A DNA stretch of 64,000 nt, from the NCBI GenBank assembly GCA_009838175.1, contig VXSB01000060.1, forward strand, positions 1-64,000, written 5' to 3'. The position numbers and the translations under genes are program-made. The stretch comes from Chloroflexota bacterium. GTDB lineage: Bacteria > Chloroflexota > Dehalococcoidia > Lucifugimonadales > Lucifugimonadaceae. The notes beneath the pieces were generated by a model that worked only from the letters and a program-made list of their open reading frames with translations, ran no database searches and was not told where the DNA came from. This document shows positions 38,206 through 47,374 of this stretch, one piece after another (the stretch's first letter is position 1; each line of letters begins with the position of its first letter).

Positions 38206-38280
<75 letters not shown>

Positions 38281-43672: not shown

Positions 43673-44119
43673 ATGGACCGCATCCTGATAATCAACGGCC
43701 CGAACCTGAACAATTTGGGCAAACGCGACGCCGGACACTACGGTTCGATCACGCTCGCAGACATAGAGGAGCGGGTAACCGCGCGCGCTGAGAAGCTTGG
43801 GGTCAAAGTTGCCTTTTTCCAATCGAATCACGAGGGTGCGATAGTCGATTGGATACAGGCTGAATCAGGCAGCGCAGCCGGCATCATCATTAACGCCGGA
43901 GCCCTCACTCAAGTCGGTTACTCAATTCTCGACGCATTGCTGGACAGCAAACTTCCCGTCGTTGAGGTTCACATATCTAACATCCACGCACGTGAAGAGT
44001 TCCGTCGCCACTCTGTGATTGCTCCATATGCAGTGGGGCAGATAGCCGGTCTGGGATACCGCGGCTACATCTACGCTCTGGAGAGCCTAGTGGCAGACGT
44101 AGAGGAAGCATCCGCATGA
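43673..44119 (+). CDS. aroQ: 3-dehydroquinate dehydratase, type II
   Basis: AroQ performs the third step of the shikimate pathway. The 148-residue protein has INGPNLNNLGKR at the N terminus, the active-site Tyr in GHYGS, NHEGAIVDWIQ, INAGALTQVGYSILDAL, and VEVHISNIHAREEFR with the catalytic His. It overlaps the next gene by 4 nt (ATGA), which implies translational coupling. Confidence 0.96.
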   Translation: MDRILIINGPNLNNLGKRDAGHYGSITLADIEERVTARAEKLGVKVAFFQSNHEGAIVDWIQAESGSAAGIIINAGALTQVGYSILDALLDSKLPVVEVHISNIHAREEFRRHSVIAPYAVGQIAGLGYRGYIYALESLVADVEEASA

Positions 44120-45210
44120 GCCAACACGGTTTTCGGCACCCGAATCGCGTAGCCGCTCTCCGATCGTTGATTCAGGAACAAGAGATCGATGCCATGTTGA
44201 TCTCCGATCCGCACAACCGTCGCTACCTGTCAGGTTTCATCGGGACTGCTGGATACCTATTCATAACCGAATCCGACGCAGTCCTAGCGACCGATTTCCG
44301 TTACACCGAACAGGCCGGATTTCAGGCCACCGGCTTCGAGATTTCGCAGATCCAAGGCCGATTGTCGGAGTGGTTCCCCAAGCTACTTGCCAATCTGGAA
44401 GTCTCCAATCTCGGCTTTGAGGCTGACAACTTGACCGTATCCGCACTCAAGATGTTTGAAGACGCGGTTGCCGAGAGCGATGTCGAGGTGTCATTCGAAC
44501 CTAAATCCGGCGATGCGGCCAAGTTGCGCGCCATCAAGGATGCCGGTGAAATCGAACTACTTCAGAAAGCAATCGACATTGGAGATGCAGCCTTTGAGGA
44601 AACTGCGGCCAAACTGACCGCGGGCATGACCGAGAAGGAAGCCGCGTGGGAGTTCGAGAAAGCGATTCGCGAACGCGGCGCTGAGTGTCTGTCATTCGAC
44701 ACGATCGTCGCCAACGGCCCAAACGCGGCGCGCCCGCATCACCAAACAGGTGACTCCGAACTCCAAGAAGGCGAAACCATAGTCTTCGACTGTGGTGCCA
44801 CATACCAAGGCTATTGTTCCGACCTTACAAGGACAGTGGTTCTTGGAGATGCAGACGACGAAGTGGCGAAGATCTACAACATCGTGCTAGAAGCTCAAGA
44901 AGCCGCTATCGAGCAAGTCGAAGCGGGGCTAACCGGCGGTGAAGCGGACGGCATCGCTCGCAAAATCATCGCTGATGCCGGATACGGAGACATGTTCGGT
45001 CACAGCCTCGGCCATGGACTGGGCCTTGAGGTGCATGAAGAACCGAATGTCGGGCCACGCGGCACAACGTCGCTAGAGGATGGAATGCCGTTCACCATTG
45101 AGCCAGGTATCTACATTCCCGGATGGGGCGGTGTCAGAATCGAAGATGTAGTAGTTCTCGAAAACGGGCGCGCACGCGTCTTGAGTCACGCAGAAAAGAT
45201 GCGGTTTTAG
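44116..45210 (+). CDS. M24 family Xaa-Pro aminopeptidase/dipeptidase
   Basis: A 364-residue metallopeptidase of the creatinase/pita-bread fold that cleaves X-Pro bonds. The N-terminal creatinase domain spans about 1-130. The five metal ligands are visible: Asp in VFDCGATY, Asp in CSDLTRT, His in HSLGHGLGLEVHE, Glu in FTIEPGIYI and Glu in VRIEDVV. It lies between aroQ and efp, a frequent pepP/pepQ-efp context. Aminopeptidase versus dipeptidase specificity is not clear. Confidence 0.94.
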   Translation: MSQHGFRHPNRVAALRSLIQEQEIDAMLISDPHNRRYLSGFIGTAGYLFITESDAVLATDFRYTEQAGFQATGFEISQIQGRLSEWFPKLLANLEVSNLGFEADNLTVSALKMFEDAVAESDVEVSFEPKSGDAAKLRAIKDAGEIELLQKAIDIGDAAFEETAAKLTAGMTEKEAAWEFEKAIRERGAECLSFDTIVANGPNAARPHHQTGDSELQEGETIVFDCGATYQGYCSDLTRTVVLGDADDEVAKIYNIVLEAQEAAIEQVEAGLTGGEADGIARKIIADAGYGDMFGHSLGHGLGLEVHEEPNVGPRGTTSLEDGMPFTIEPGIYIPGWGGVRIEDVVVLENGRARVLSHAEKMRF

Positions 45211-45270: not shown

Positions 45271-45834
45271 ATGACCATCTCCTCATCCGAAATCCGCCGC
45301 AACATGACCATCTTGCTCGATGGTGATGTCTACCAGATCATGGAGTGGCAGCACCGACAGGCACCTAAAGCCCCGCCGACCTTAACCCTGAAGGTTAGGC
45401 AATTAAGCACCGGCAGCGTGTTCGAACGCAAATTAAACGGCAACCATAAGCTGACGGTGGCGCAGACCGAACGTCGCAACGCACAGTACCTCTATAAGGA
45501 AGGCGAATTCTACGTCTTCATGGACATGGAGACCTACGAGCAGCATCTTCTCGGCGACAATCTTCTCGGCGACGCGACCTATTTCCTGCCCGAAGGCGGG
45601 GAGTTGGTTCTGTTGATGTACGAAGAGAAGCCTATCCTCGTCGAGTTGCCGTCCGCCGTCAATCTCTCAATCGCCCATACCGAAGTCGGACTGAGAGGCG
45701 ACACTCAAAGCGGCGCGACAAAACCTGCTACCACCGAAACCGGCCTGACCCTGCAGGTGCCGCTGTTCGTCAACGAAGGCGACACCATTAGCGTCAACAC
45801 GACCACGAAAGAGTACATCGGCCGCGCCGACTAA
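45271..45834 (+). CDS. efp: Elongation factor P with atypical tip loop
   Basis: EF-P rescues ribosomes stalled at polyproline. The 187-residue protein has three OB-like domains: KOW-like N-terminal (MTISSSEIRRNMTILLDGDV), middle, and C-terminal (VPLFVNEGDTISVNTTTKEYIGR). The tip loop, normally KPGKGGA around the modified lysine 34, reads QAPKAPPT here, with the lysine (K33) kept but the glycines replaced by Ala and Pro. No epmA-type modification gene is in the window. Confidence 0.95.
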   Translation: MTISSSEIRRNMTILLDGDVYQIMEWQHRQAPKAPPTLTLKVRQLSTGSVFERKLNGNHKLTVAQTERRNAQYLYKEGEFYVFMDMETYEQHLLGDNLLGDATYFLPEGGELVLLMYEEKPILVELPSAVNLSIAHTEVGLRGDTQSGATKPATTETGLTLQVPLFVNEGDTISVNTTTKEYIGRAD

Positions 45835-45872: not shown

Positions 45873-47114
45873 ATGTACAGCTCCGTAGAATCCCCCGCTA
45901 CATCTACCGACAAGCCTGGTCCCAGCTCAGTCTCCGAGGTTTCGCAGCTGATTCAAGGATTGCTCAAAAGCGATCCTCAGCTTGCGAACGTCAGCATAAT
46001 CGGCGAAGTTTCGGGGCACTCTCAACCCGCGTCTGGACACAGCTACTTCTCGTTGCGCGACCGCGAGGCATCGCTCAGATGCGTCATGTTCCGCTACGGT
46101 CGCGGCCATCAATACTTGGAAGACGGCGCGTTAGTAGTGTGCGAAGGCTCAGCCGGCATCTACGCGCCGCGCGGCGATCTCCAAATCATTGTCACATCTG
46201 CCGAACCCGCCGGCGTGGGCGATCAGCAGGCCCAACTCGAAGAATTAAAGCGCAAGCTTCGTGCCGAAGGGTTGTTCGATCCGTCCCGCAAACGCACACT
46301 TCCGCAATTTCCTCAACGGATCGCAGTCATTACCTCCGAACAAGGTGCAGTCTGGCACGACATCGCAAACGTGGTACGACGTAGATACCCTTTGATGGAA
46401 TTGATGCTTGTCCCGTCAGCCGTACAAGGCGAATTGGCACCAGTCTCCATCATCGAAGCCTTCGCCGACCTTCATGCATATGCCGAGACCGAAACGGTCG
46501 ATGCTGTAGTCGTGGCTAGGGGAGGCGGATCTGCCGAGGACTTGATGCCATACAACGACGAAATGGTTGCAAGAACCATCTTCGCCAGCCGTATACCCGT
46601 CATCAGCGCCGTTGGCCACGAAACCGATTTCACCATCGCAGATGATGTCGCGGACCTCCGCGCTCCGACGCCTTCAGCCGCAGCTGAGTTGGTTTCACCC
46701 GACATTGCTGGACTTACCTTCGAGACCGCCGACTTCGCACAAAGGTTGATGCGCGGATTATCGGGACGGGTAACGCTAGCGAGACAACGCTTGGAACTGA
46801 CCCATGACCGGCTAGCCGAAAACGCTCCTGACACCCAACTTTTCCGCGATCGCGTTGACGAGTTGAAAGCACGAGCCCAAGACTCGTGGGCGCGATACAT
46901 CACGATTAAGCGCGAAGGCATGAAGCGCGTCGAGGCGGAGCTCAGAGCTCTAGCCCCACACAACATTCTGGAACGCGGCTACGCCATGGTTCGCGGCACC
47001 GACGGACGCGTTATCTCAAGCGCCACCAATATCGAACCAAAGGAAAACCTCGAACTAACCTTTGCGGATGGTACCGTCGAAGCCGAGGCTAAAGTCGTAT
47101 CGACAAACAACTAA
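45873..47114 (+). CDS. xseA: Exodeoxyribonuclease VII large subunit
   Basis: XseA is the catalytic subunit of the single-strand exonuclease used in mismatch repair. The 413-residue protein has an N-terminal OB-fold (NVSIIGEVSGHSQPASGHSY), the catalytic domain with PQRIAVITSEQGAVWHDI, ARGGGSAEDL and ISAVGHETDFTIADDVADLRAPTPSAAAE, then a helical coiled region. It is slightly shorter than the E. coli protein. xseB follows 14 nt downstream. Confidence 0.95.
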   Translation: MYSSVESPATSTDKPGPSSVSEVSQLIQGLLKSDPQLANVSIIGEVSGHSQPASGHSYFSLRDREASLRCVMFRYGRGHQYLEDGALVVCEGSAGIYAPRGDLQIIVTSAEPAGVGDQQAQLEELKRKLRAEGLFDPSRKRTLPQFPQRIAVITSEQGAVWHDIANVVRRRYPLMELMLVPSAVQGELAPVSIIEAFADLHAYAETETVDAVVVARGGGSAEDLMPYNDEMVARTIFASRIPVISAVGHETDFTIADDVADLRAPTPSAAAELVSPDIAGLTFETADFAQRLMRGLSGRVTLARQRLELTHDRLAENAPDTQLFRDRVDELKARAQDSWARYITIKREGMKRVEAELRALAPHNILERGYAMVRGTDGRVISSATNIEPKENLELTFADGTVEAEAKVVSTNN

Positions 47115-47128
47115 CTCCAACCCAAGCC

Positions 47129-47374
47129 ATGACCGACTCAGATCAATCCCAACCTGAACCGCCGGCATCTTTCGAAGACGCCTTCACAAGACTCGAATCG
47201 GTGGTGCGTCGATTGGAAAGCGGGCAAATGTCTTTGGATCAATCGACCGCTCTCTTTGAAGAGGGGATGCAACTCGCGAAGACCTGCACCGAATTGCTAA
47301 ACGGAGCCGAACTCAAGATTCAGCGATTGCAACAAGGTCTAGCCGAACAGCTCAACCTAGTTTCGGATGAGTAA
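47129..47374 (+). CDS. xseB: Exodeoxyribonuclease VII small subunit
   Basis: An 81-residue helical protein that binds XseA. It has FEDAFTRLESVVRRLESGQM, LDQSTALFEEGMQLAKTC, and the C-terminal helix typical of the family. It lies between xseA and the formyltransferase gene, whose GTG start is 2 nt after its stop. Confidence 0.94.
   Translation: MTDSDQSQPEPPASFEDAFTRLESVVRRLESGQMSLDQSTALFEEGMQLAKTCTELLNGAELKIQRLQQGLAEQLNLVSDE

Follow-up and report, generated by a model that had tools for sequence, protein, structure and literature searches.

EF-P helps ribosomes through proline runs, and it usually requires a post-translational group at its tip. The EF-P of C. glutamicum is reportedly unmodified, which a 2020 Cell Reports paper is said to have described. 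According to PMC6544042, K34 was found in 81.11% of 1166 EF-Ps, and P32 was found in 98.73% of those of the lysine type. The same paper reports that E. coli EF-P function was abolished by P32S, P32G, G33A and G33S, that G35N kept 3.8%, that the K34 variants A, M, N and Q were inactive, and that unmodified E. coli EF-P, when overproduced, retained about half activity. For both E. coli and P. putida it further links G33 with modification as well as with function, and it states that over half of all bacteria lack a gene for any known modifying enzyme. Loop stiffening is presented as a strategy effective without modification in PMC11611912, which cites work on Actinobacteria.

The efp gene and its tip loop

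The DNA analysed here, the window, is a 64,000-nucleotide stretch of contig C59 of a 2.64 Mb genome that is 91% complete. The ORF at 45271-45834 (+) is the efp gene. Its 187-aa product has three domains, the Pfam models EFP_N, EFP OB and Elong-fact-P_C each scoring above cut-off, and the TIGR00038 efp model gave 204 bits against a cut-off of 185.8. A genome-wide profile search found a single EFP_N match in the source genome. The neighbourhood consists of ordinary housekeeping genes: upstream, a class II dehydroquinase gene (43673-44119) precedes the gene for an M24 peptidase with a creatinase N domain (pepQ-like; 44116-45210, +), and downstream the large subunit of exonuclease VII (45873-47114, +) is followed by the small subunit (47129-47374).

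The initial annotation described the tip loop as lacking the usual glycines, with the lysine retained between Ala and Pro neighbours. This description was borne out by phmmer alignments to the solved EF-Ps of S. aureus (6rji) and C. glutamicum (6s8z), which run without gaps through the tip loop, found in the window protein in the context ...WQHRQAPKAPPTLTLK. The PGKGSA of 6rji was aligned to APKAPP of the window EF-P, and the PGKGP of 6s8z occupies the same loop positions. In E. coli numbering, P32 is replaced by A, G33 by P and G35 by A, two prolines follow, and K34 is kept as Lys33 (codon AAA, 45367-45369, +). An AF2 model made with 29 input sequences (mean pLDDT 90.3) placed residues 30-36 as a seven-residue turn between strands 19-29 and 37-44; together with the gapless alignment and K33, this indicates that the seven-residue beta3-beta4 loop with a basic tip is present. 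The top 21 PDB matches to the model were all EF-P or EfpL, and the highest TM-score among the matches listed was 0.88, for 6s8z, in a whole-chain comparison that did not probe the loop itself. The position first given for the loop, 45361-45393, misses its first codon and extends four codons beyond its end; the QAPKAPPT codons, for residues 30-37, lie at 45358-45381 (+). By way of this segment the efp gene itself contains Pro-Pro codons (PPKAPP in some genera), so that EF-P may in part be needed for its own synthesis.

Conservation and origin of the loop

The loop proved to be a family signature rather than a local mutation or a sequencing accident. PKA[PA]P was present in 51 of 51 genes read, from 50 genomes of one SAR202 family of the Dehalococcoidia that counts the cultured Lucifugimonas marina among its members, and the family consensus was R-x-[AP]-P-K-A-[PA]-P-T. 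All 32 nearest loci had QAPKAPP, one of them with an ambiguous residue at the arginine; variants elsewhere in the family were RKPPKAPP, RNPPKAPP and RKAPKAPP. Among 63 distinct family genes the residues H-5, P-1, K, A+1, P+3, T+4 and T+6 were invariant, P+2 was present in 62, and position -2 was Ala in 52 and Pro in 11. Synonymous codons vary at the invariant loop residues, where each of the four Pro codons and each of the four Ala codons occurs; fixed residues with varying codons argue that the residues are under selection. One family genome carries a tandem EF-P pair (L142:4223-5427, -), with the loops RSAPKAPPT and RKAPKAAPT.

An order-wide search gave an EF-P match in 233 of 250 genomes of the order, and in 73 of 76 within the family. 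A DNA pattern for H-R-x-[AP]-P-K-A-[AP]-P-T was found in 21 of 393 genomes of the class, all 21 in the family, and in none of the 372 class genomes outside it. The close relatives found in named genomes were SAR202 or Dehalococcoidia assemblies. Because metagenome assemblies make up most of the genomes, we considered whether the loop arose as an artefact of assembly or binning, or belongs to an odd gene acquired horizontally. However, the loop is also carried by Candidatus Lucifugimonas marina JH1073, whose chromosome is complete, and by all 50 family genomes read, and the family forms one clade adjoining other families of the order, with 100/100 support, in a careful EF-P tree (58 rows chosen from 181; a first, quick tree had 160 rows). 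This explanation has next to no probability and was excluded. Under midpoint rooting of the 58-row tree, the order's EF-Ps were not placed as one exclusive group.

The other families of the order have a different loop, mostly KMQQRAP and also MQQRTP in the 20 loci read (L162-L181). The tip residue was Gln in 18 of these, Lys in one and Gly in one, and Arg stood at +1 in 19. The EF-Ps of these sister SAR202 families resemble the window EF-P in lacking the glycine pair and in having Pro at +3 from the tip, but the tip is mostly Gln where the window family has Lys, and +1 is Arg where the window family has Ala. Elsewhere in the Chloroflexota, EF-Ps of two families (f39 and f44) have a PGNWRA loop, with an Asn tip followed by Trp (L090, L091, L094, L095, L097, L099-L104, L110 and L111), and two Dehalococcoidia EF-Ps (L034 and L036) have loops, KTKKSA and KMKRTA, that are seemingly one residue shorter.

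Comparison with described types and search for modifying enzymes

The window EF-P has the fold and the tip lysine of lysine-type EF-Ps modified by EpmA/EpmB or YmfI, but it has lost P32 and G33. The lysine-type rule of Pro at -2 and Gly at -1 is broken throughout the family, -1 being Pro in 63 of 63 distinct genes. The Arg tip of the arginine type, modified by EarP, is absent, Lys being found in all 63. The initial annotation also likened the loop to the actinobacterial PGKGP loop, and this likeness stands in part: in the alignment to 6s8z the seven-residue loop, the tip lysine (K34) and the Pro at +2 (P36) are common to both, whereas the actinobacterial loop keeps Gly at -1 and +1 and Pro at -2, and the window family has Pro at -1, Ala at +1, Ala or Pro at -2, and Pro at +3. 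EfpL (YeiP) offers a further comparison. Its tip is unmodified in E. coli according to PMC11611912, and the tip of the window EF-P is best read likewise, but EfpL has an Arg tip and a loop of more than seven residues, in contrast to the Lys tip and seven-residue loop found here; the EfpL model gave the window protein 130.5 against a cut-off of 216.

The observation that no EpmA/B or YmfI-like gene lies in the window holds, and it extends to the family: in profile searches of 76 family genomes, neither EpmA, EpmB nor YmfI (cut-off 238) had a match above cut-off. Among 14 named control genomes, the EpmA cut-off was passed in two and the EpmB cut-off in one. Of the four enzymes proposed for this search, EarP also gave no match in the 76 genomes, with a profile that matched no control genome either. 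The matches examined individually were the YmfI-like gene of the source genome, the family's best EpmA-like gene and the neighbourhood of L184. The first, the source genome's top candidate for a hidden YmfI, scored 202 bits as YmfI against 283 as FabG and adjoins plsX, and was rejected as FabG. Some relatives' YmfI-like matches fell short of the cut-off by less than 8 bits (230.1), and the 230.1 match, at L184, also adjoins plsX. The family's best candidate for a hidden EpmA was rejected as a 503-aa LysS.

A proposed mechanism for the loop

Since the family has an unusual, conserved, proline-rich tip, and since EpmA, EpmB and YmfI were not found, the tip may work unmodified. The best reading of the sequence comparisons, and one that we hold to be somewhat probable, is that the loop is a pre-organised and probably unmodified lysine loop, akin to but distinct from the actinobacterial PGKGP. 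The flexible PGKGG of the seven-residue tip loop would have been replaced by R-x-[A/P]-P-K-A-P-P; prolines flanking the lysine, with both glycines lost, would hold the loop in one shape; and the unmodified Lys33 of this pre-shaped loop would then be able to contact the CCA end. Rigidity would thereby take over the job done in other EF-Ps by beta-lysyl, aminopentanol or rhamnose groups. Because the E. coli variants at P32, G33 and G35 are inactive or nearly so, the new loop must compensate fully for the replaced residues. Here we infer loop rigidity, the absence of modification and EF-P activity alike.

The lysine may instead owe its conservation to modification by a still undescribed enzyme, one that takes the Pro/Ala context as its recognition site. 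The invariance of the lysine in 63 of 63 distinct genes is consistent with such an enzyme, as is the statement in PMC6544042 about bacteria with no known modifying enzyme; negative profile searches are uninformative on enzymes of that kind. On the other hand, G33, to which the same source ties modification and function, is Pro in every family gene, and the predominance of Gln at the tip in the sister families makes it improbable that a lysine modification was passed down within the order. We therefore regard a modified Lys33 as unlikely.

D-loops of tRNA-Pro and initiator tRNA

According to PMC4890201, the D-loop of tRNA-Pro has to be 9 nt long for E. coli EF-P; shortening or lengthening it by a single nucleotide abolishes the effect, and initiator tRNA carries the same D-arm. 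At 38206-38280 (+) the window encodes an initiator-type tRNA-Met(CAT) whose D-loop has 7 nt (GAGC-AGTGGTA-GCTC), and the genome's own tRNA-Pro(UGG) likewise has a 7-nt D-loop; the loci for these 7-nt D-loops are window 38206-38280 and L190:8380-8454. Among classifiable rows of the matches listed, the D-loop of tRNA-Pro(UGG) was 7 nt in 41, 9 nt in 14 and both 7 and 10 nt in one of the family's 56 classified genomes; the corresponding counts were 7 nt in 41, 8 nt in six, 9 nt in five and both 7 and 10 nt in one for the order's other families (n=53), and 8 nt in 27, 9 nt in 22, 10 nt in 13 and 7 nt in six for other Chloroflexota (n=68). Initiator-type tRNA matches had a 7-nt D-loop at 66 of 67 places, in 65 of 192 genomes of the order, only matching genomes being read. 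For tRNA-Pro(GGG), the D-loop was 9 nt in both genomes where this tRNA was found.

A link between the EF-P tip loop and the D-loop of the tRNA was considered and rejected. The tRNA-Pro(UGG) D-loops of 14 of the 56 classified family genomes are 9 nt only, among them genus g229 with the same RQAPKAPPT loop, and 7-nt D-loops dominate in the order's other families too. The 7-nt D-loops are thus order-wide and not tied to the EF-P tip loop, and because D-loop length is independent of the EF-P loop we do not claim coevolution. A broader proposal is that SAR202 bacteria have re-engineered both contacts between EF-P and P-site tRNA: this family would have a rigid, enzyme-free, proline-rich tip, and EF-P would recognise tRNA-Pro(UGG) and initiator tRNA with D-loops of 7 nt instead of 9 nt. 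The proposal is tentative, and we hold it to be possible rather than probable.

Demand for rescue at proline runs

Work for EF-P remains in these bacteria, given that ValS retains PPP and that PP motifs are still common. Counts of PP dipeptides in mechanical ORFs of at least 150 aa, over about 375-400 kb in each of five genomes, gave observed/expected ratios of 0.80-1.13 against a shuffle expectation: 1.06 in the source genome (298 observed, 282 expected), 0.80 and 0.93 in two other family genomes, and 1.07 and 1.13 in two genomes of the order outside the family. The deficit in two of the three family genomes could mean weaker rescue, and the ratios neither prove nor exclude full rescue activity. 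One might argue from this deficit that drift has left EF-P with a weak or altered role, so that the loop no longer needs to reach the peptidyl-transferase centre. The unrelated MQQRAP loops of the sister families point the same way, as do the D-loops of tRNA-Pro(UGG) and initiator tRNA, mostly 7 nt against the 9 nt that E. coli EF-P needs according to PMC4890201. Such drift is nevertheless quite improbable, since the loop residues are fixed in the family while codons vary, the gene is kept in nearly all family genomes, and PPP persists in ValS. The window EF-P, the only one found in the genome, has most likely kept its role of freeing ribosomes that stall on runs of proline.

Implications

A literature search for SAR202 with EF-P, and for APKAPP with EF-P, found no report, with most subscription journals outside its coverage. 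How EF-P works without a tip modification is the question that this natural loop addresses: it breaks both of the lysine-type sequence rules, and within an entire family of ocean bacteria it is fixed. A cultured member of the family exists, according to PMC10444878, and with a fixed loop it would allow the rigidity idea to be tested directly. The 7-nt D-loops, for their part, would question the generality of the D-arm recognition rule. If both contacts have indeed been re-engineered, two rules drawn from E. coli EF-P fail in these SAR202 bacteria.
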